Assembly: GCF_905221025.1 (NCBI RefSeq)
Contig: NZ_CAJNBL010000003.1
Location: forward strand, 1-34,689
DNA from: Candidatus Nitrotoga fabula
GTDB lineage: Bacteria > Pseudomonadota > Gammaproteobacteria > Burkholderiales > Gallionellaceae
Length of the DNA: 34,689 nucleotides
Reading direction: 5' to 3'
Of the stretch, positions 781 through 18,751 are shown one piece after another. The position numbers were made by a program, and so were the translations under genes. The notes beneath the pieces were generated by a model, which was not told the origin of the DNA, made no database searches, and worked only from the letters and a program-made list of their open reading frames with translations. Every line of letters starts with the position of its first letter. Within the stretch, counting starts at the first letter, position 1.

Positions 781-1269
781 ATGACTATGGAGAAACCTGA
801 AAATTCCATCCTGATGAAGAATACCGGGCGTAAAGAAGGTCAGGACAAGAAAGTTTTGCTCGACTGTCAGGTACCTTCACAACTCGAAGAAATCGAGAAA
901 CTGGCCGATGCCGTCAATCAGGTTTTACCGGATCCTGATCTGGCTTTCACGGCCAACCTGTGCCTGGAAGAATTGATATCCAACACCATTCTCCACGGTC
1001 TCAATGGAGCTGACGATCAGTTCATCCATGTTCAAATCAGTATTTCGAACGAATGGCTAGAAATCCTCCTCCGGGATAATGCGCCTCAGTTTGACCCTTT
1101 CATGCAAGCCCCCAAACCCAACCTGAGTCTGGATATAAACGAACGCCCGATCGGCGGTCTCGGTGTGCATATGGTGAAGACGCTGATGGACGTTGTCCAT
1201 GCTTCTTACGATGGCACAGGCAATTGGATTGTATTGCGTAAAAGCCTGCATCCCAAAACCACGAATTAA
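781..1269 (+). CDS. RsbW-like anti-sigma factor / serine kinase (HATPase_c_2)
   Basis: This 162-residue protein has the single-domain GHKL ATPase fold of RsbW/SpoIIAB anti-sigma kinases. The N box is EELISNTILHG (residues 63-73, with E64 and N68). The G1 box is RDNAPQFDP (98-106) and the G2 box is IGGLGVHMVK (124-133), so it appears catalytically complete. Family members bind a sigma factor or other target and are displaced by an unphosphorylated STAS antagonist, which they phosphorylate on serine. The likely antagonist is the STAS protein encoded convergently 21 bp downstream. I chose the ATG at 781, preceded by GGGAAG. A TTG at 766 and ATGs at 787 and 814 are alternatives, and the domain itself begins near residue 24. 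Its target is unknown because no sigma factor is encoded nearby. Confidence 0.85.
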   Translation: MTMEKPENSILMKNTGRKEGQDKKVLLDCQVPSQLEEIEKLADAVNQVLPDPDLAFTANLCLEELISNTILHGLNGADDQFIHVQISISNEWLEILLRDNAPQFDPFMQAPKPNLSLDINERPIGGLGVHMVKTLMDVVHASYDGTGNWIVLRKSLHPKTTN

Positions 1270-1290
1270 AAATTCTCCGGATACATTCAT

Positions 1291-1626
1291 TCAGACGAAA
1301 ACTGCAAGCGCCTCGGAAACAGAATCTTTCATTGTAAATACGGATGTAAAACCGCACATATCGAATACTGACCGGACATTGCCCTTGACGTTCGCTAGGC
1401 ACATCCGGCCACTTTTTTCATTCAGGAGCTTGGCCATAACCAGAAGTCCGCGCAAGCCTGCGCTGCTGATGTATTCCAGTTGTTCAAAATCGACGACAAA
1501 TTTAATATTCCCGCCAGAAATCATTTCCCGAATGTTTTTTTCATATTCTGGTGCTGTAACCGTGTCTAGCCTGCCGCTAACCGTCAGCACGGTGACATTA
1601 TTTTCTATTCTAGTCTGCAAATTCAT
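1291..1626 (-). CDS. STAS-domain anti-sigma factor antagonist (RsbV/SpoIIAA-like)
   Basis: A 111-residue single STAS domain. The hallmark stretch LEYISSAGLRGLL (residues 50-62) aligns with the phosphorylation loop of SpoIIAA, which places S55 at the phosphoserine position. The N-terminal strand pattern VTVLTVSGRLDT and the later VRSVFDMCGF are also typical. In known systems the unphosphorylated form binds the RsbW-type kinase and frees its target, while SpoIIE-type phosphatases remove the phosphate. It is the last gene of the minus-strand operon, starting only 5 bp after the stop of the ABC ATPase gene. It faces the stand-alone kinase gene across a 21-bp gap, so a complete phosphatase/antagonist/kinase set lies within 8 kb. 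Confidence 0.9.
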   Translation of the reverse strand: MNLQTRIENNVTVLTVSGRLDTVTAPEYEKNIREMISGGNIKFVVDFEQLEYISSAGLRGLLVMAKLLNEKSGRMCLANVKGNVRSVFDMCGFTSVFTMKDSVSEALAVFV

Positions 1627-1631
1627 AAATG

Positions 1632-2735
1632 TTATTCTTCGTGAGAGAGGTTTTTAACCTGGAATTCTAATCTGTTTTTACCGTTATGCCACTGATAGTC
1701 TATGCTTTCAGTCAGGTTCTTGATAATCGTAAATCCCAAATCATCGGTCAATCCATGGCTATCCAGCGGATTCGCCTTCTCCCCGGTGCTTTCACAGATC
1801 AGATCAAGGCGCCTGCTCTTTTCCGAATAGGCTATGGTCATATCCAGGATCATCTTACCCAGATAGGGAGCATAGATCTGCAGCAATTCTTCAATCAGCA
1901 GGAGCAGGTTGTACCTGGTCTTCTTTGGCAGTATCTGTTTCTCACAGAAAGCTTCAATTTCAGCATTCATGGCATACAGATCGTAATCGGGCGAAAGAAT
2001 GCGCCAGGTAAAACTGAGCGTTCTGTTGATGAATGCCCTGGTTTTATCCTTCTGCGGATTCTCGAAAATCTCGTCCGGGGTTCCCTCTTCGAAGATCAAT
2101 CCTTCATCCATGTATAACACCCGGTTGGATACATCACGGGCAAAATCCATTTCATGAGTAACGATTGCCATGGTTATTCCCTCCCTGGCGAGGCGGCGGA
2201 TCACCGAGAGCACTTCCCTGACCATGGTTGGATCCAGCGCCGAAGTCGGCTCGTCAAACAAAATAATCTCCGGTTCCATGGCCAGGCAGCGGGCAATCGC
2301 CACTCGCTGTTGCTGTCCTCCGGAAAGCTCTTCCGGATAGTTTTCTGCTTTCTCGGCAAGCCCGACCAGTCGCAACAGTTCAAGAGCCTTGGTTCGGGCC
2401 GCTTCCTTGCTCATTCCACGCAACCGGATCGGCGCGATGGTCAGGTTTTCCATCACGGAAAGATGGGAAAAAAGATTGAATGACTGGAACACCATATTCA
2501 TTTTCTGGCGGATTTTAGCCACGTCGGCTTTCTTGTCCAGAATGTTCACGCCATCAATATAAATGGACCCACCGCTAGGATAATCGAGCAGATTGAGGCA
2601 ACGCAGCAAAGTGCTTTTCCCGGTACCGGAAGGACCGATAATAGAGACAATCTCCCCTCTTTTGATTTCAGTGTTGATGTCCTTGAGCACGACTAGATCA
2701 CCAAACTTTTTTGAAAGATGCTCGATCCGGATCAT
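1632..2735 (-). CDS. Polar amino-acid ABC transporter ATPase fused to a degenerate RsbW-like ATPase domain
   Basis: Residues 1-240 form a standard GlnQ-type ABC ATPase. They contain Walker A GPSGTGKST (34-42), Q-loop Q84, signature LSGGQ (137-141), Walker B ending in E162 and H-loop H194. Family members of this type end near residue 245. Here about 125 extra residues follow, and they resemble an RsbW/SpoIIAB-like HATPase domain. IEELLQIYAP (281-290) sits where the N box should be, and DDLGFTIIKNL sits where the G2 box should be. The usual N-box asparagine is replaced by isoleucine (I287) and the GGLG of G2 is DDLG, so this domain probably does not act as a kinase and may instead bind the STAS protein. 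The ATG overlaps the stop of the permease gene by 4 bp (ATGA), which implies translational coupling and a shared complex. Confidence 0.9.
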   Translation of the reverse strand: MIRIEHLSKKFGDLVVLKDINTEIKRGEIVSIIGPSGTGKSTLLRCLNLLDYPSGGSIYIDGVNILDKKADVAKIRQKMNMVFQSFNLFSHLSVMENLTIAPIRLRGMSKEAARTKALELLRLVGLAEKAENYPEELSGGQQQRVAIARCLAMEPEIILFDEPTSALDPTMVREVLSVIRRLAREGITMAIVTHEMDFARDVSNRVLYMDEGLIFEEGTPDEIFENPQKDKTRAFINRTLSFTWRILSPDYDLYAMNAEIEAFCEKQILPKKTRYNLLLLIEELLQIYAPYLGKMILDMTIAYSEKSRRLDLICESTGEKANPLDSHGLTDDLGFTIIKNLTESIDYQWHNGKNRLEFQVKNLSHEE

Positions 2736-5700
2736 TTTCTGGCTGCCTTTTGCCGTTTGTATTTCGGGCTGGTAGCCCGCTCAAGATTTTCCAGTAGCTG
2801 CATCATAATCCATGCGATTACGAAATACAGGATCGCCACCATGACCAGCGGGAAAAAGGCATCAAAGGTACGACTGCGAATGATATCGCTGGCCTTGGTG
2901 AGATCCTGGACTGCAATATAACCGACAATGGACGTCATCTTGACCAGTGAAATAAATTCCCCCTTATATACCGGTAGAATACGCTGCACAGCCTGCGGAA
3001 GAACAATATAGACAAACGTCCTGAACTTGCTGAAACCCATGGCGATACCCGCCTCGACCTGACCTTTTCCGACCCCCTCAATGCCTGACCGGAAGATTTC
3101 AGAAACATAGGCACCAAAATTCATCCCCAGTGAAATAATCGCAACCAGCACCGGGCTGATATTGACCGATGCAAAGACCACATAAAAAATCAGCATCAGC
3201 AAAACCAGAACCGGCGTTCCCCGGATAACGTTGATATAGATCCTGGCAGGCAGATTGAGAACCTCCCTCTTTGACATCCGCATAAAGCAGATCAGCGCAC
3301 CTAGCAGCGTTCCCAGGATCGACGCAAAGATGGAAATGACCAGGGTGGTCTTCAGCCCGTCCCAGATCAGGAGATACCGATTTTCCTGAATGATGTTGCT
3401 GTAGAAACTGTTGCTCACCCTTGCGATGAATGATGGAGACCCGGTTGCCGCGCTGGGCTCGGCACCATACGCAGCAATATTCTTCCTGAGAGCGAAAACC
3501 TTGGTGGCCATCTCATAATACGAATCGGAAAAATGAATCTGTTTTTTTCTTTCTTCCGTGATATAGATCGAGCTGATCACCATGTCGACTTTGCCAGAGG
3601 AAACCGCAGCAATCAGGCTGCCGAAATCCATGTTGGAATACCGGATTTCCTTCCCCAGATACGCCGCAAATCTCTGTGCAAGCTCGATATCCAGTCCGAC
3701 CAGCTGATTATCCAGCACGGCTGCGAAAGGGAATCCATTATCGCTGATGCCCACAACCATCACGCCGTTTGTTTTGGAGTTTTTGATGACCGGCATGCGC
3801 GTTTCGCCTTTTTCCATCCAGCGATGAATCATGTCCGCATAGACGCCGCTTTGCCTGATCTGCGATAAAAACTGATTAAATTGATCTCGCAATGCTTCAT
3901 TGTCTTTTTTGAATCCTGCTCCAACCGGGAACGAAAACAAGGAATCCCCCAATAACCCCAGGGTATCGTCCTGGCGCATAATTTCGCGCAGGGGATCGGC
4001 ATCAAACAGAGCAGCATCCACCTTGCCTGACTTGACCGCCAGTGCGACATCTGCGGGAGATTTATACTGGAGAATCGTGGCATCCGGATAATGTTTCGTT
4101 GCATACGTGTCATGCGCGGAGCCAACCAGCACTCCAATTCGCTTGTCTTTCAGGTCTGCGGCCGTAGCAAGCATGGCCCCCCGATTTTTCGTGACATCGT
4201 TTTTCCTGGCAGCCGTTCCATATCCCACATCCATACCGGAAGGTGAAGACTGTCTGACCAGGGCTGAAATATCATTTTCAATGTACGGAAGGGCGAACGA
4301 CACCAGGGTTTTACGCTCTTCCGTCACATTAAAATTGGAAAGAGCAAAATCAATTTTGCCTGACTGTAGCGCAGGGATCAGGCTTTCAAAATTCATGTCT
4401 ATGATCTCGATTTTTTTCCCAAGACGCGACCCAATGAGCTCTCCGAGCTCAACATCCAGGCCAGTCAATACACCATTCGCCAGGAATGAAAAGGGTTCAA
4501 TGGTGGCGCTCGTCCCCATTCTCAGTATCCCCTTGCTGCGAGTAGCATTTACCGGGGCGATCTGCGGCGTAATCTTGTATTTGGCATCAATCCATTTCGC
4601 TCTCAGGTGCTGCAGGATTTGTTCCTGTTTCAATTCGGATAACACCCTGTTTATTTCGGACAGCAACTGCGTATTATCTTTCCGGATGGCGGCGGCAACT
4701 TCCAGCACATCCACTCGTTCATCCAGAATCACCAGGTCCGGGTTTTTCTCAACAAGATTCAACAGCACGCTTTTGTCATAGACAAAGGCATCGGCCTTGC
4801 GGCTCTTGACTGCAATAGCCACATCCGCTGCGGAAGTGAACACCTGAAATGTTGCGTTCGGGAAACGCCTGCGGGCGGCCAGGTCTCCGGCGGAGCCATT
4901 CAAAACACCAATTCTCTTGCCGTCAATATCCTGTAGTTGCGATATCTCATGACCGCTGCCCGATGGGGTTGAGGACAACAACGGCATTTCCGCAGCAGGC
5001 TTTTTGACCAGCATGACCTGGGCATTGTCATAATAGGGCTGCGTAAAATCGACAAATTTTCTGCGTTCCTCCGTTGCAGTCATGCCAGTCACGATCAGAT
5101 CCACCTTGCCTGATTGCAGCGCTGGAATCAGGGCCATGAATTTCATGTTCAGAAATTCGACCGGTCTTTGCAGCCTGGCGCCGATAATACGTGCAAGCTC
5201 ACCGTCATGTCCGGTTACCCGGCCATTTTTGTCCACAAAGCTGAATGGCTCCCTTGTGGCGCTGACGCCTATTTTTAGCGGTTCTCCAGTAGTGGGAAGC
5301 GTTAAGTCAAGTTCTTCATAAGGGGTCAAATCCGGTTTGAACCAGCGCTTTTTCATGGATTCCAGCGTTCCGTCGCTCTTCAGCTCGGCGATAATCCGGT
5401 TCAAAGTGGTTAAAAACTCATCATTGCCTTTTCTCAGCGCGATCGCGGTAGCCTCGTGATCCAGCGGCTCGAGTAGCACCCTGAATTCCGGATTTTTTTT
5501 CGAAACTTGAAGAGCCGCAGGGTATGCCGTCACAATCGCATCGAGCTGACCGGATTTCATCGCGGCAACGGCATCCATCACATCATCAAAACTTTTGACG
5601 TGCGCATCTGGGAACCGGTTTATAACAATCGCTTCGCCGGTTGAACCCGTCATCGCGCCGATTCTTGCATTTTTTGCATCCTCAAGGCTGGCAATGACCA

Positions 5701-5794
5701 TTTCATTTTTTTTACAACCGCTGAAAATAGCGATTACCGTCAGCAAGATCAGCCAGAACAGCGAAGCCTTTTTCGTGTACGCAATGCTGATCAT
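2732..5794 (-). CDS. Multi-domain amino-acid-binding / ABC permease fusion (GlnP-like) with split binding domains
   Basis: A 1020-residue fusion that begins with a lipoprotein-type signal (hydrophobic 12-24, then FSGC with C27). Residues about 40-155 resemble only the second half of a type II periplasmic binding protein. Residues 170-402 and 422-662 are two complete SBP_bac_3-type domains, each with the PFSF near the start and TEER in the hinge region. Residues 677-771 are only the first half of a further domain. A permease domain follows (about 805-1005) with an EAA-type loop near 914-940. It resembles GlnP of Gram-positive GlnPQ systems, where tandem binding domains are fused to the permease, but the half-domain arrangement is unusual. 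Polar amino acids are the likely substrates; the exact ligands cannot be read from sequence. It starts 1 bp after the phosphatase stop and overlaps the ATPase start. Confidence 0.9.
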   Translation of the reverse strand: MISIAYTKKASLFWLILLTVIAIFSGCKKNEMVIASLEDAKNARIGAMTGSTGEAIVINRFPDAHVKSFDDVMDAVAAMKSGQLDAIVTAYPAALQVSKKNPEFRVLLEPLDHEATAIALRKGNDEFLTTLNRIIAELKSDGTLESMKKRWFKPDLTPYEELDLTLPTTGEPLKIGVSATREPFSFVDKNGRVTGHDGELARIIGARLQRPVEFLNMKFMALIPALQSGKVDLIVTGMTATEERRKFVDFTQPYYDNAQVMLVKKPAAEMPLLSSTPSGSGHEISQLQDIDGKRIGVLNGSAGDLAARRRFPNATFQVFTSAADVAIAVKSRKADAFVYDKSVLLNLVEKNPDLVILDERVDVLEVAAAIRKDNTQLLSEINRVLSELKQEQILQHLRAKWIDAKYKITPQIAPVNATRSKGILRMGTSATIEPFSFLANGVLTGLDVELGELIGSRLGKKIEIIDMNFESLIPALQSGKIDFALSNFNVTEERKTLVSFALPYIENDISALVRQSSPSGMDVGYGTAARKNDVTKNRGAMLATAADLKDKRIGVLVGSAHDTYATKHYPDATILQYKSPADVALAVKSGKVDAALFDADPLREIMRQDDTLGLLGDSLFSFPVGAGFKKDNEALRDQFNQFLSQIRQSGVYADMIHRWMEKGETRMPVIKNSKTNGVMVVGISDNGFPFAAVLDNQLVGLDIELAQRFAAYLGKEIRYSNMDFGSLIAAVSSGKVDMVISSIYITEERKKQIHFSDSYYEMATKVFALRKNIAAYGAEPSAATGSPSFIARVSNSFYSNIIQENRYLLIWDGLKTTLVISIFASILGTLLGALICFMRMSKREVLNLPARIYINVIRGTPVLVLLMLIFYVVFASVNISPVLVAIISLGMNFGAYVSEIFRSGIEGVGKGQVEAGIAMGFSKFRTFVYIVLPQAVQRILPVYKGEFISLVKMTSIVGYIAVQDLTKASDIIRSRTFDAFFPLVMVAILYFVIAWIMMQLLENLERATSPKYKRQKAARK

Positions 5795-5795
5795 G

Positions 5796-7733
5796 TCAGG
5801 CGATTCCCTTTTTTGCCATTTTTATCGCCAGCATGGTAATGTCGTCGGATTGCGGCGCTCCGTTGGCATGCTGTGCCACCTCAGAACTGATGAAATGAAT
5901 CATTTTTGCCAGATCATCCCGTGGGGCGCCCTGCAACGCTTTCAGCATCCTCTCCTGACCATACAGGGCATCCTCCGGATTCTTTGCCTCCGTCACGCCA
6001 TCGGTGTAAAGAAACAGGGTGGCATCCGGCTCCAGGGTTAGCCGTTCCGTCACAAACACCGTTCCGGACAGGGCGCCCAGCATCAACCCCGGTTTTGGAG
6101 TGAGATACCGCACTCCATGTGAATCGAGAATCAGCGGCGGGTTATGGCCGGCATTGGCATAGCGTACATCCCCGGTCGTAATATCCAGAATAGCGCAGAA
6201 TACCGTGGTGAACATGCAGTTTTCATTATCCAGCGCAAGTATGTTATTGACAGAGGATAGAATCTTGTCCGGCTCGCCCAGCCGCTGGCCTTCAGTCTTC
6301 AGGAGGGTTTTGGCCACCATCATATACAGTGCAGCGGGAACCCCCTTGTCTGAAACGTCCGCAATGAGGAAGCACAAATGGTTCTTGTCGATGAAAAAGA
6401 AGTCGTAAAAGTCCCCCCCTACCTCTTTGGCTGGAACCATGGATGCGTAGATATCAAATTCGGGGTGATCGGGAAAAGGAGGGAAAATGCGCGGCAACAA
6501 ACTTGCCTGGATATTGGTCGCAACCTTGAGCTCGCTCTGGATACGTTCCTTGCTGGCGGTCGTCTCGGTCAGGTTCCTGATGTATTCCTTAAGCGACTCC
6601 CTCATTACCTGGAAGTTGTGCGCAAGCTCCCCAACCTCATCATTGGATCGCGTCGCTGGCAATTCCACGTCAAAATGTCCCGCAGCGATCTCATCCGTCG
6701 CTCCCGTCAGCAATCGCAACGGTTTTATGATCGTCCTGGCAATGTAGATTACCACCAGTGTCAGCAGCAGAATCCCGACAAAACCCATCATCATCATGGT
6801 CATGCTTAATTTCCTGACATTCTCCAGGAGCTCCTCCTCCGGGAAAACAACAGCAAGAGTCCACCCTGTCGAAGGAATCGGCGTGTAATACATCCAGCTG
6901 TCGAAACCTACCAGGCTTTGATAATGGATGAAGCCTGTTTCGCCCCGGATCATTTTCTTGCCCAGCTCCCGCAGTGATGGGTCATTGCGCCCCTCCGCGA
7001 TGCTGAAAAATGTCTCATTCATGATGGCATCCTTCATGGGATGGGCCAGAATCATTCCATTGCGGGAAAGCAAAGCTGCATAACCGGTTTTGAGAATCTT
7101 GATCGAGGAGATCAGTTGGGTCAGGGAATCGAGGGAAATATCTGAAATCACAATTCCCTTGAGCTGTTTTCCACTGGCGGTATCCTTGTAAAAGGGAACC
7201 GAACAGGTAGACTTCAGAATATTGCCAGCACCTTCATCAAAATAGGGTTCACTCCATTCCAGCTTACCCAGCTCCCGCGGAATCTGGTACCAGTCCCAAT
7301 AGGGATAGGGGAAATCAAGATAGGCTTTTTCCAGTCGCCTGAAGGAAATTTTTCCATTTTCACGGTAGAAATAGGGGGCATACAAATGCGATGCAGCGTT
7401 GAAGGCATAAGGCTCAAAGGCCACGCCCGCGCCAGAGATTTCCGGATTTTGTTCAATGCTGGATCGGATCAACGTGAGCAATTCCCGCTCGTTATGCGGG
7501 CTGGTTTCCAGCGAACGAGCGATTCCTTCCGTAACTTTGGCAACCGCCGCCAGTTCCGTTTCTACCCGGTGAACCAGCGACATGGCAAGATTCCGCGAAT
7601 TGCTCTCCAGCTCCTGCTGCAGAATGACGCGGGACTGGTAATAATTATAGCCAAGCGTCAGGGCAAAGATGACTGCGTTAAAGAGCGAGATCACCAGAAC
7701 AAATTTAACGACGATACTATTTTTGAACGGCAT
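5796..7733 (-). CDS. Membrane sensor phosphatase: dCache-HAMP-SpoIIE (RsbU-like PP2C)
   Basis: A 645-residue protein. TM1 lies at about 8-29, a periplasmic double Cache sensor at 40-305, TM2 at 311-333, HAMP at about 334-386, then a short linker helix and a SpoIIE/PP2C phosphatase domain (405-640). Metal-binding residues are visible in GGDFYD (D441), IADVSDKG (D459), YTDGVTE (D578) and SDDIT (D630/D631), so it should be active. RsbU-type enzymes dephosphorylate STAS antagonists; the STAS protein at the end of this operon is the obvious substrate. The Cache domain has YWDWYQIP where amino-acid-binding dCache domains typically show an Arg before WY, so a plain amino-acid ligand is uncertain. 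GGAGG lies just upstream of the ATG, and the start overlaps the previous gene by 17 bp. Confidence 0.92.
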   Translation of the reverse strand: MPFKNSIVVKFVLVISLFNAVIFALTLGYNYYQSRVILQQELESNSRNLAMSLVHRVETELAAVAKVTEGIARSLETSPHNERELLTLIRSSIEQNPEISGAGVAFEPYAFNAASHLYAPYFYRENGKISFRRLEKAYLDFPYPYWDWYQIPRELGKLEWSEPYFDEGAGNILKSTCSVPFYKDTASGKQLKGIVISDISLDSLTQLISSIKILKTGYAALLSRNGMILAHPMKDAIMNETFFSIAEGRNDPSLRELGKKMIRGETGFIHYQSLVGFDSWMYYTPIPSTGWTLAVVFPEEELLENVRKLSMTMMMMGFVGILLLTLVVIYIARTIIKPLRLLTGATDEIAAGHFDVELPATRSNDEVGELAHNFQVMRESLKEYIRNLTETTASKERIQSELKVATNIQASLLPRIFPPFPDHPEFDIYASMVPAKEVGGDFYDFFFIDKNHLCFLIADVSDKGVPAALYMMVAKTLLKTEGQRLGEPDKILSSVNNILALDNENCMFTTVFCAILDITTGDVRYANAGHNPPLILDSHGVRYLTPKPGLMLGALSGTVFVTERLTLEPDATLFLYTDGVTEAKNPEDALYGQERMLKALQGAPRDDLAKMIHFISSEVAQHANGAPQSDDITMLAIKMAKKGIA

Positions 7734-8739
7734 TCGCCCTCCAGACGAAATCGCGGTATGCGGGATATTTTCGAATCAATCCGTTTTCTTGCATGACAAG
7801 GCCCACCGCCTCGTAATCCTGCTCTGCAAGGAAGCCCATTTTCCCCGTGGGTCTGACCGGCATCATCAGGTCACGCATCCGGTCCAGCATCCATTTCTGT
7901 TGCACACGGTTGGCGGGCAGATGAGCCTCGCGCATATATTTAATAACGATATCCAGTGTTTCATCCGGGTGATCGAAGGCATATCGCCACCCTTCCAGCG
8001 ACGCATCGACAAAGGCGGCAGCCAGCGAAGGATCCTTCTGGAGGGTCTTGTTCATCGTGTAAATCCCGTCTTCCAGAAAATTCATTCCCTGATCCCGGAG
8101 GAACATGACATTCAATTCCTCCGGGTCGATTCCGGAATTGATGATGGTGTGATACTCGTTGTACCACATGGCTGAAGTCACATCGATGCCACCGCGCAGA
8201 AAGAGATTGACAGAGTGGGACTGGCGTACTTCCCGAACCTTGGTACGGTTCCTGGCGAAGATCGCCCGGGGCGGGATAGACACGTCCCCTTCCCACAACC
8301 CCACCTTTTTACCTTCCATGTCTGCAATGGAGTGGATACCGGAAGTTTTTCGGGAGATCAGCATCATCGACGACCGCTGGTTAATCTGGGCCAGGTTTAC
8401 GAGATGGGTACCCGCAATCCGGTGCTGCAATGCGGTAGTCAGCCACAGTACGGCAAAATCGGTGGTACCTTTCCGCAGGGCATCCGCAGGGGAATGTCCC
8501 GGCCCGGCCCTGAGAATTTTAAGATCAATCCCGTACCGGGCATAGATTCCCTTCTCCAGAGCCACGTAATACCCGGCAAACTGGGCCTGCGGGCTCCACA
8601 GCGGCATCAGGGTCGCACTCTTCAATGGCGTGCCAGCGGCAACAAGCCGGGGCAAGAAAAAAACTGCAAGCAGCAGGACGAAAATCCATGAGATGAGCAG
8701 GTACGATTGACGCCGGGTTTGATTCGGATACCAGATCAT
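7717..8739 (-). CDS. NMT1/THI5-like ABC-type substrate-binding protein
   Basis: A 340-residue protein with one N-terminal hydrophobic segment (about 14-34) ending near VAAG, either a signal peptide or a membrane anchor. The body follows the NMT1/THI5 pattern. A first stretch, LWSPQAQFAGYYVALEKG, is followed by YGIDLKI, a SPADALRKGTTDFAVLW segment, and a second lobe starting MEGKKVGLW. Relatives bind pyrimidine or thiamine precursors, taurine or sulfonates, so the ligand here is open. It is the first gene of the operon and overlaps the SpoIIE phosphatase start by 17 bp. It does not belong to the same binding-protein class as the polar amino-acid domains in the 1020-residue fusion, so it may act as a ligand-sensing accessory to the Cache phosphatase rather than feed the permease. 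An AGGGGGG stretch precedes the ATG. Confidence 0.85.
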   Translation of the reverse strand: MIWYPNQTRRQSYLLISWIFVLLLAVFFLPRLVAAGTPLKSATLMPLWSPQAQFAGYYVALEKGIYARYGIDLKILRAGPGHSPADALRKGTTDFAVLWLTTALQHRIAGTHLVNLAQINQRSSMMLISRKTSGIHSIADMEGKKVGLWEGDVSIPPRAIFARNRTKVREVRQSHSVNLFLRGGIDVTSAMWYNEYHTIINSGIDPEELNVMFLRDQGMNFLEDGIYTMNKTLQKDPSLAAAFVDASLEGWRYAFDHPDETLDIVIKYMREAHLPANRVQQKWMLDRMRDLMMPVRPTGKMGFLAEQDYEAVGLVMQENGLIRKYPAYRDFVWRANAVQK

Positions 8740-17643: not shown

Positions 17644-18669
17644 TTATGCTGACGCAGTGTGATCAGGGCGGAATATTCCGTCCTTTACCAATAGCGCCCA
17701 TACAATTCTGGCATTTTTGTTCGCCAGCACCACGGCGGCAATGTTCTTGTTGCGCCGCGCCATCAATTTCTTGAGCCAGCCATCGGGCTCCGCTTTGTTC
17801 TCAGCAACACGTATGACGGCCCTTGCGCCGTGTATCAGCAATGTGCGCAGAAAAGTATCTCCTCGCTTACTGATACCGAGCAGTGTTTGCTTGCCGCCAC
17901 TGGAGTTCTGTTTTGGAACTAGTCCCATCCACGCCGCCATCTGGCGAGCATTCTTGAATTCTCTGGCATCGCCAACACTTGCCACAATGGCGCTCGCCGT
18001 GATGGGTCCAATACCAGGCACAGCTTCCAGTCGCTGACTGGCTTCATTCTCTTGATGCCAGTATTTGATCTGCACTTCCAATTCCCTTACCTGACGGTCC
18101 ATTTCTTTCAGGCTGTCGGTCAGGCGCTCAAGGAGTTTCCGTATCGTGCCAGGCAACCCATTCTCGGCATCCTCCAGAATCTCCGGTATGCGCTTGGCAA
18201 CGGCAGTAATTCCTTTCGGGACTACGATGCCGAACTCCAAGAGCAATCCTCTGATCTGGTTGCCGTGTGCCGTTCTGGCTTTCACGAAGCCTTGCCTCGC
18301 CCGATGTACCGATAGAATCGCTTGCTGCTCAACGTTTTTAATGGGTACAAATCGCATATTGCGCCGATTCACGGCCTCGCTGATAGCTTCCGCATCGGCT
18401 GCATCATTCTTGTTGGTCTTCACATACGGCTTCACAAACTGCGGTGCCATGAGTTTGACCGTATGACCAAACTCCTCCAGCTTTCTTGCCCAATGATGTG
18501 CACCACCGCATGCCTCCATGCCAATCAGGCAAGGTTTTAAATTAGCAAAGAACTTTGCCATCTCGCTCCAACGTAGCTGCTTGCGCAGCACTGTCTTGCC
18601 CTGCGCATCTGCAGCATGCACCTGGAAAACATCTTTGGCCAAATCCAGGCCTATCGTAGTAATATTCAT
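17644..18669 (-). CDS. IS110-family (IS1111-type) transposase/recombinase
   Basis: A 341-residue DEDD recombinase. The N-terminal RuvC-like domain shows GLDLAKDVFQVHA with the first catalytic Asp, then LIGMEACGGAHHWAR (Glu) and KNDAADAEAI (Asp-Asp region). The C-terminal Tnp_20 domain has LEAVPGIGPITASAIVA, followed by MAAWMGLVPKQNSSGGK, which contains the conserved serine. No frameshift or stop is seen and the length is normal, so it is probably functional. The start at 18669 is preceded by a GGGG stretch; a frame 11 codons longer has no family support. Confidence 0.95.
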   Translation of the reverse strand: MNITTIGLDLAKDVFQVHAADAQGKTVLRKQLRWSEMAKFFANLKPCLIGMEACGGAHHWARKLEEFGHTVKLMAPQFVKPYVKTNKNDAADAEAISEAVNRRNMRFVPIKNVEQQAILSVHRARQGFVKARTAHGNQIRGLLLEFGIVVPKGITAVAKRIPEILEDAENGLPGTIRKLLERLTDSLKEMDRQVRELEVQIKYWHQENEASQRLEAVPGIGPITASAIVASVGDAREFKNARQMAAWMGLVPKQNSSGGKQTLLGISKRGDTFLRTLLIHGARAVIRVAENKAEPDGWLKKLMARRNKNIAAVVLANKNARIVWALLVKDGIFRPDHTASA

Positions 18670-18751
18670 GACAGACGCCCCTTTCAGTTTTAGTGGTCTC
18701 AACGAACCACTACTTTGGCACCTTGATGCCGTTTCTGGAAGTAGGCGTCCA

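Follow-up and report, generated by a model that had tools for sequence, protein, structure and literature searches.

Can a partner-switching module, a device known mainly from gene control, act on a transporter? This question is raised by a six-gene locus of Candidatus Nitrotoga fabula at positions 781-8739 of a stretch of 34,689 nucleotides (contig NZ_CAJNBL010000003.1), which as a whole is called the window. The locus joins the genes of an amino acid importer to those of a putative partner switch, and its ATP-binding cassette (ABC) ATPase carries a C-terminal tail that appears to derive from an RsbW-like kinase. As the combination recurs across phyla, cells may indeed switch transporters by such a device.

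An importer operon with the parts of a partner switch

A preliminary description of the window had reported five overlapping or abutting minus-strand genes and a complete RsbW-like kinase gene converging on them. Open reading frames, gene spacing and Pfam domains bore out the identities and positions of all six genes (Table 1). The gene of the NMT1-type binding protein overlaps the SpoIIE gene by 17 nt, which is followed after 1 nt by the gene of a solute-binding protein (SBP) array fused to a permease. The latter overlaps the ABC ATPase gene by 4 nt, the STAS gene follows after 5 nt, and 21 nt separate it from the convergent kinase gene.

The importer has the composition of a polar amino acid ABC importer, namely SBP_bac_3 domains, a BPD_transp_1 permease domain and an ATPase whose Walker and signature motifs are intact (GPSGTGKST, LSGGQQQ and DEPTSALD, read in the sequence). 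Its sequence matches in the PDB include AncQR, many amino acid SBPs and the amino acid permease 4yms. All parts of an Rsb-type switch are present as well: a SpoIIE/PP2C phosphatase, a STAS protein with a phosphorylatable serine and a kinase with N-box asparagine, G1 aspartate and a GGLG motif. All 20 STAS sequences from loci with tailed ATPases, one duplicate gene included, have both serines. The window copy of SpoIIE is the sole match found in the 2.3 Mb genome. HATPase_c_2 gave six matches there. Of the three above the cut-off, two lie in frames of 444 and 461 aa, and the window kinase alone has a short frame (167 aa). The NMT1 protein is likely the periplasmic partner of the SpoIIE sensor.

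Predicted fold and catalytic residues of the ATPase tail

An RsbW-like domain had been assigned to the C-terminus of the ATPase in the preliminary description. Pfam gave no HATPase match in the window tail at E ≤ 0.01, and HATPase_c_2 reached the tails of two close relatives below its curated cut-off (G556:C101, E 1e-4; G555:C119, E 6e-4). AlphaFold2 modelled the tail alone, using six sequences, with a predicted local distance difference test score (pLDDT) of 87.8 and a predicted template modelling score of 0.82; the pLDDT of the whole ATPase was 78.6. When the tail model was compared with known structures by Foldseek, rows 1-18 were UsfX, RsbW or SpoIIAB (E 8e-6 to 1.3e-3; template modelling score by query 0.51-0.70), and all 16 PDB rows at E ≤ 1e-3 belong to this family. 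UsfX-RsfB, RsbV/RsbW and SpoIIAB entries headed the list, followed by Rv1364c and SiaB-SiaC, with histidine kinases after those. The predicted model has a GHKL fold nearest to that of anti-sigma kinases, and by this model the tail belongs with them.

A sequence profile built from six tails was searched in 50 genomes. Its strong matches were the tails of ABC-sized frames, and its weak ones, at about E 1e-4 to 1e-10, fell on frames as long as stand-alone kinases and on the ends of SpoIIE-sized frames; against PDB sequences it gave a single match with E 0.3.

The N-box asparagine and the G1 aspartate have catalytic roles in kinases of this fold. Among 55 distinct tails the G1 aspartate is found in none and the N-box asparagine in 13, so that no tail holds both; the window tail has neither. 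The two residues occur together in 40 of the 41 distinct stand-alone kinases from the fetched loci, in all 26 kinase domains fused to SpoIIE and in 4 of 21 fusions of other kinds (with duplicates counted: 56 tails, 42 kinases, 27 SpoIIE fusions and 22 other fusions). By its sequence the tail looks like a pseudokinase relative of RsbW, not a kinase. Other positions are well conserved in the 55 tails, namely the two N-box glutamates (54 and 55), Asp252 (54), Gly318 (52) and the C-terminal Asn354 (51). Since these residues persist without an ATP site, the domain seems to be under selection, and because an RsbW-like fold is predicted while the kinase motifs are lost, the tail should be read as a putative docking domain. 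The earlier assignment is supported by the fold, the tail profile and the weak matches in two relatives. Two other identities of the tail were rejected, that of an active second kinase on the motif census and that of an ordinary ABC C-terminus on the fold and because the same genomes encode close ABC ATPases whose frames measure about 250-270 aa.

Recurrence and spread of the gene set

A SpoIIE alignment was scanned against 84,980 species, each represented by a single genome; the best 80 matches represent 79 distinct loci, and the counts are lower bounds. In a metagenome-assembled genome (MAG) of Methylovulum (locus L031), five of the six genes recur in unchanged order with 68-81% identity. 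A Desulfobacteraceae MAG (L033) contains all six, including the convergent kinase in the same place, with 73-80% identity. The preliminary description had staked its case on the gene set being found outside this strain, and these two loci, with tail matches in many genomes, show that it is.

Part of the set also occurs by itself. In 11 loci (L035-L044 and L046) the NMT1 gene directly precedes the dCache-SpoIIE gene and no tailed ATPase is present; STAS and kinase genes are found in seven of these (L035, L036, L037, L039, L040, L044 and L046) and were not seen in L038 and L041, while L042 and L043 stop at or shortly past SpoIIE. L036 (4144-7239) and L039 (7017-11027) have the NMT1-SpoIIE-kinase-STAS set followed by another importer type with ABC_sub_bind proteins, and L039 also encodes a BPD_transp_2 domain, an ABC ATPase of 270 aa and a second STAS-containing protein (418 aa). 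A Thiodictyon plasmid (L011) carries NMT1, SpoIIE, STAS and kinase genes, with no tailed ATPase seen. The neighbourhoods of L012 and L013 were uninformative; L013 has an annotated substrate-binding gene beside SpoIIE and no ABC ATPase in its gene table.

In the family of L075 the tail profile had matches at E ≤ 1e-10 in 9 of 148 genomes, in the phylum of L033 in 4 of 247 and in Synergistota (the phylum of L050) in 44 of 149 (74 rows). Where they were drawn, the six genomes from which the loci of the profile came, or through which these were reached, are part of the counts. Judged by record titles, tailed ATPases occur in six phyla: Pseudomonadota, Thermodesulfobacteriota, Bacillota, Synergistota, Cloacimonadota (G594) and Fibrobacter (G602). 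These genomes are mostly MAGs, in which binning errors are possible. The tail search in plasmids gave no match, and none of the ABC, SpoIIE and NMT1 queries was confirmed in viral contigs. In a copy from a Geobacteraceae MAG (L140), a gene for a Bmp/PnrA-type binding protein (1553-2605) lies between the tailed ATPase and STAS genes.

In a quick tree on ABC columns alone, with long control branches, 54 tailed ATPases formed one group against 40 untailed rows (support 97 in the Shimodaira-Hasegawa-like approximate likelihood ratio test), and the window ATPase grouped with L031 and L033 (99). A single-sequence search found the tail in 1 of 158 genomes of the window's family, its own, and in 1 of 398 genomes of its phylum; L031 and G568, also Pseudomonadota, emerged later. 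Near-alike copies in different classes, together with none in the 157 other genomes of the family by this search, point to a spread of the operon by horizontal transfer.

Linkage of tailed ATPases to SpoIIE

Loci L031-L109 were found through SpoIIE and are hence uninformative on linkage. Among the loci found through the tail, 29 were read over 9-18 kb each (nine of the L075 family, three of the L033 phylum and 17 of the 74 Synergistota rows). SpoIIE is present in 11 of them, two of which (L204 and L205) overlap and have one SpoIIE in common, and SpoIIE or STAS in 13. In Synergistota, 18 of the 74 tail rows have a listed SpoIIE match no more than 12 kb away, and in all 18 the nearest one shares the strand of the tail; for the strong tail matches this fraction is 16 of 40, again among the SpoIIE matches listed.

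A within-genome control covered 34 of the 44 tail-bearing Synergistota genomes, using the best rows for SpoIIE and ATPases. Among these matches SpoIIE lies within 12 kb of 16 of 59 tailed ATPases versus 0 of 91 ATPases without a tail match (Fisher p 8e-8); 57 of the 91 have frames of ≤ 310 aa, and a few of the other 34 may have weaker tails. Likewise, a SpoIIE match occurs in 42 of the 44 tail-bearing genomes versus 52 of 105 without a tail match (p 2e-8, counted by eye among the matches listed). These statistics ignore phylogeny, and broken contigs hide linkage in tailed and control groups alike. SpoIIE linkage of the tailed ATPases is above the within-genome control.

Two trivial explanations of the locus were rejected. 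A strain-specific oddity is ruled out by the many tails from profile searches in other groups and by L031 and G568, and a chance neighbourhood by the Methylovulum and Desulfobacteraceae copies and the linkage control.

Similar tails on MATE and EamA transporters

Tails on MATE and EamA proteins near SpoIIE are a feature absent from the preliminary description. In relatives, proteins of 570-630 aa with a tail-like C-terminus were found near SpoIIE. Ten proteins were tested with Pfam; nine are MATE proteins and the tenth (332 aa) has no Pfam match. Five of the nine match HATPase_c_2 at E ≤ 0.001, two of them below the cut-off, and four are tailed by the tail profile only. A STAS gene lies near eight of the nine, and none was found in L062. 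In the alignment, the MATE tails of L098 and L204 retain the N and D motif residues. The ABC tail led to L204, L207 and L213. The other MATE and EamA loci came from SpoIIE searches, so that their nearness to SpoIIE is not independent evidence. Three loci with SpoIIE encode STAS fused to an APH-like phosphotransferase domain (L094 11536-12723, L209 362-1525 and L216 3108-4304, the last just below the Pfam cut-off).

Is the transporter the output of the switch?

The mechanism which we propose for the locus would start with the NMT1 protein and/or the dCache domain, which would sense a ligand and set the activity of the SpoIIE phosphatase. To judge from their protein families, the convergent kinase would phosphorylate the STAS serine and SpoIIE would take the phosphate off. 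Dephosphorylated STAS would then bind the ATPase tail, taken to be a dead RsbW-like domain, and, once docked, alter the dimerisation of the ATPase or its cycle, so that import would be gated on or off. We give an even chance to this partner switch, with the transporter as its output, controlling the importer without transcription. If the target has to hold STAS and leave it unphosphorylated, a switch would need just such a pairing of an active kinase with a dead copy on the target.

The computed support consists of the gene set and its recurrence, the SpoIIE linkage, the predicted RsbW-type fold of the tail, its loss of motifs, their retention in the kinase and the STAS serines. The unit is alike in the window and in the Methylovulum and Desulfobacteraceae MAGs, with the importer as the sole candidate output inside it. 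Similar tails on MATE and EamA proteins near SpoIIE are in favour of docking, most such loci being SpoIIE-found. Overall, the interpretation given in the preliminary description is supported at the level of sequence. For several partner switches no target has been identified, and here the genes themselves nominate one, a dead kinase copy welded to a transporter. If so, many gut and sediment bacteria would gate transport fast through serine phosphorylation.

A broader proposal is more tentative, and we would rather bet against it than for it: pseudo-RsbW tails on at least three transporter superfamilies (amino acid ABC, MATE and EamA/DMT) might be docking ports for phospho-switched STAS proteins, and PP2C/RsbW cassettes might be transport switches across many phyla, partly acquired ready-made, with an ABC branch that has permuted SBPs.

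Several points weigh against docking and gating. As the ATP site and lid of the tail are gone, STAS binding may be gone too. The window kinase has alanine at the G1 glycine, as have 3 of 42 kinase rows, and no kinase was found adjoining the Methylovulum operon, two short-frame kinase matches lying elsewhere in that genome. Neither SpoIIE nor STAS was found in 16 of the 29 tail-found loci over the 9-18 kb read, and the weaker class of Synergistota tails is rarely linked to SpoIIE (2 of 34). The tail profile was seeded from SpoIIE-found loci, which favours linkage.

The same parts could also work in the opposite direction, with the transporter as sensor. Turnover or ligand load would expose or hide the tail, which would compete with the active kinase for STAS, and free STAS or kinase would control some target encoded elsewhere, for instance an enzyme or a sigma factor. 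A sigma factor is the classical output of Rsb systems, and a STAS review names non-canonical STAS proteins which act on unknown targets (PMC8256260). The many tailed ATPases without switch genes nearby would suit a sensor that is dispersed. However, the units of the window, L031 and L033 contain no further gene (the flanks are partly classified, and sigma factors were not searched genome-wide), and no second SpoIIE was found in the genome of the window. We consider this arrangement unlikely.

The large share of tails unlinked to SpoIIE would equally suit a tail that serves dimerisation or stability only, with the GHKL interface kept, partner binding lost and the clustering with SpoIIE due to shared regulation. 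RsbW and SpoIIAB proteins do dimerise. This explanation, which we think rather improbable, is at odds with a SpoIIE linkage exceeding the within-genome control and with the same type of tail on MATE and EamA proteins near SpoIIE genes.

RsbT has the RsbW-like fold as well. That the tail acts in the manner of RsbT, binding the SpoIIE phosphatase itself and reporting the transport state, deserves little credence, although RsbT binding activates the phosphatase RsbU (PMC12143880) and the importer genes adjoin the SpoIIE gene, as the window SpoIIE has a dCache-HAMP input of its own and the same type of SpoIIE occurs with NMT1, STAS and kinase in L035, L037 and L040, where no importer was seen alongside.

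Relation to known systems

In MlaFEDB of E. coli the ABC ATPase MlaF is bound by the STAS protein MlaB and depends on it for stability and assembly; the phosphomimetic variant Thr52Glu bound more weakly in a pull-down, and phosphoregulation of MlaB was suggested, not shown (PMC7367683). The pairing of STAS with an ABC ATPase resembles that of the window, which is one of gene neighbourhood. In contrast, MlaFEDB is a lipid transporter whose MlaB binds the nucleotide-binding domain of MlaF, and the consulted parts of that paper describe no RsbW-like tail, SpoIIE phosphatase or kinase for Mla. If docking on the tail is true, STAS-ABC regulation of the MlaFB type would be one case within a wider class.

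In Pseudomonas aeruginosa the phosphatase SiaA and the kinase SiaB control how far SiaC is phosphorylated, and this partner switch acts on an enzyme (PMC7647112); SiaC binds the diguanylate cyclase SiaD (PMC8457831). Such a switch is a precedent for a non-sigma output, and the PDB matches of the window tail include a SiaB-SiaC structure, 6kko (E 7e-3). The output there is SiaD, however, and the sections of these papers used here mention neither a transporter nor a pseudokinase fused to the target. RsbU/RsbV/RsbW and SpoIIE/SpoIIAA/SpoIIAB comprise the same three protein families as the window, which keeps the STAS serines and the N and D residues of the kinase. Their known outputs are sigma factors (PMC8256260), whereas in the window a dead RsbW-like domain is fused to the ATPase of an importer. 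The main text of this review, published in 2021, contains no word starting with 'abc', and no partner switch built on ABC, MATE or EamA transporters was found in the open-access literature searched. The earlier claim that no described system welds the switch to an ABC importer must be qualified, with MlaB-MlaF (PMC7367683) and SiaABC (PMC7647112) standing as precedents.

Table 1. Features of the window locus and tailed transporters of related loci (E, expectation value; AF2, AlphaFold2)
Feature	Position	Strand	Evidence
NMT1/THI5-type solute-binding protein	window 7717..8739	-	Pfam NMT1 E 5.6e-37
dCache-HAMP-SpoIIE (PP2C) phosphatase, membrane sensor	window 5796..7733	-	Pfam dCache_1 1e-19, HAMP 7e-16, SpoIIE 2.9e-51
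SBP array fused to permease, 1020 aa	window 2732..5794	-	Pfam SBP_bac_3 (four stretches) and BPD_transp_1
C-terminal half of circularly permuted SBP domain (residues 22-152)	window 5339..5731	-	residues 29-152 align to 104-231 of AncQR
N-terminal half of SBP domain adjoining permease (residues 681-797)	window 3404..3754	-	profile positions 2-103
Amino-acid-type ABC ATPase with putative C-terminal RsbW-like pseudokinase tail	window 1632..2735	-	ABC_tran E 2.6e-36
Predicted RsbW/SpoIIAB-like tail, about 130 residues (236-367)	window 1635..2030	-	AF2 model, PDB fold matches, motif census
STAS protein, SSAGL serines Ser54/Ser55	window 1291..1626	-	Pfam STAS E 2.1e-20
Stand-alone RsbW-like kinase, convergent with operon	window 781..1269	+	Pfam HATPase_c_2 E 4e-20
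MATE with C-terminal HATPase_c_2 near STAS and SpoIIE	L055 8805-10640; L061 7613-9397; L098 7399-9117		Pfam
MATE with C-terminal HATPase_c_2 near STAS and SpoIIE	L204 12714-14465		Pfam HATPase_c_2 E 7e-19
MATE with C-terminal HATPase_c_2 below cut-off, near STAS and SpoIIE	L052 1121-2947; L207 12124-13878		Pfam
EamA-type transporter with tail-like C-terminus, just upstream of SpoIIE, Synergistota	L213 398-2236; L050 7205-9004		tail profile

Circularly permuted binding protein domains

A separate structural oddity of these importers is the permutation of their SBP domains. The preliminary description had recognised the SBP-permease fusion, which the SBP_bac_3 and BPD_transp_1 matches confirm, and had missed the circular permutation. 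In the window protein the array consists of an SBP C-half (profile positions 105-228 at residues 22-152), two full SBPs (1-228 at 174-402 and 1-228 at 425-660) and an N-half (2-103 at 681-797), followed by the permease at residues 802-1000. Since a lipoprotein-like signal, read by eye, stands just before the C-half, the N-half was not lost through a misplaced start. In 33 distinct complete fusions the array opens with a C-half (profile 85-117 to 227-228) and closes with an N-half (to profile 94-117) directly before the permease. Two further fusions, truncated at contig ends, fit this order over the part that remains, and the row of L156 repeats L101. The minimal fusions contain one permuted SBP, as does the protein of L141 (501 aa). 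In the arrays the two end halves may pair together, or every unit may be permuted.

Separate SBPs show the same order by the SBP profile, C-half then N-half, in 16 of 16 printed cases from six loci. For L141, residues 167-260 correspond to 12-105 and residues 24-146 to 105-231 of the PDB chain AncQR; by this alignment its SBP is a circular permutation at the hinge. One separate SBP of L213 has PDB sequence matches for its N-half only, so that the permutation of the separate SBPs rests on the profile. Permuted SBP_bac_3 domains were seen in the window fusion, in L141, L148, L153, L159, L229, L206, L207 and L228, and in L050, L142, L213, L215, L216 and L217.

In importers of the GlnPQ type, binding domains are fused to the permease. 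The window importer likewise has SBP_bac_3 fused to an amino-acid-type permease and an adjoining ABC ATPase gene; it differs in the permuted SBPs and the RsbW-like tail of the ATPase.

Elsewhere in the window, an IS110-type transposase gene is located at 17644-18702, and further genes encode acetate kinase, the large chain of RuBisCO, a chromate transporter and LodA-like proteins.

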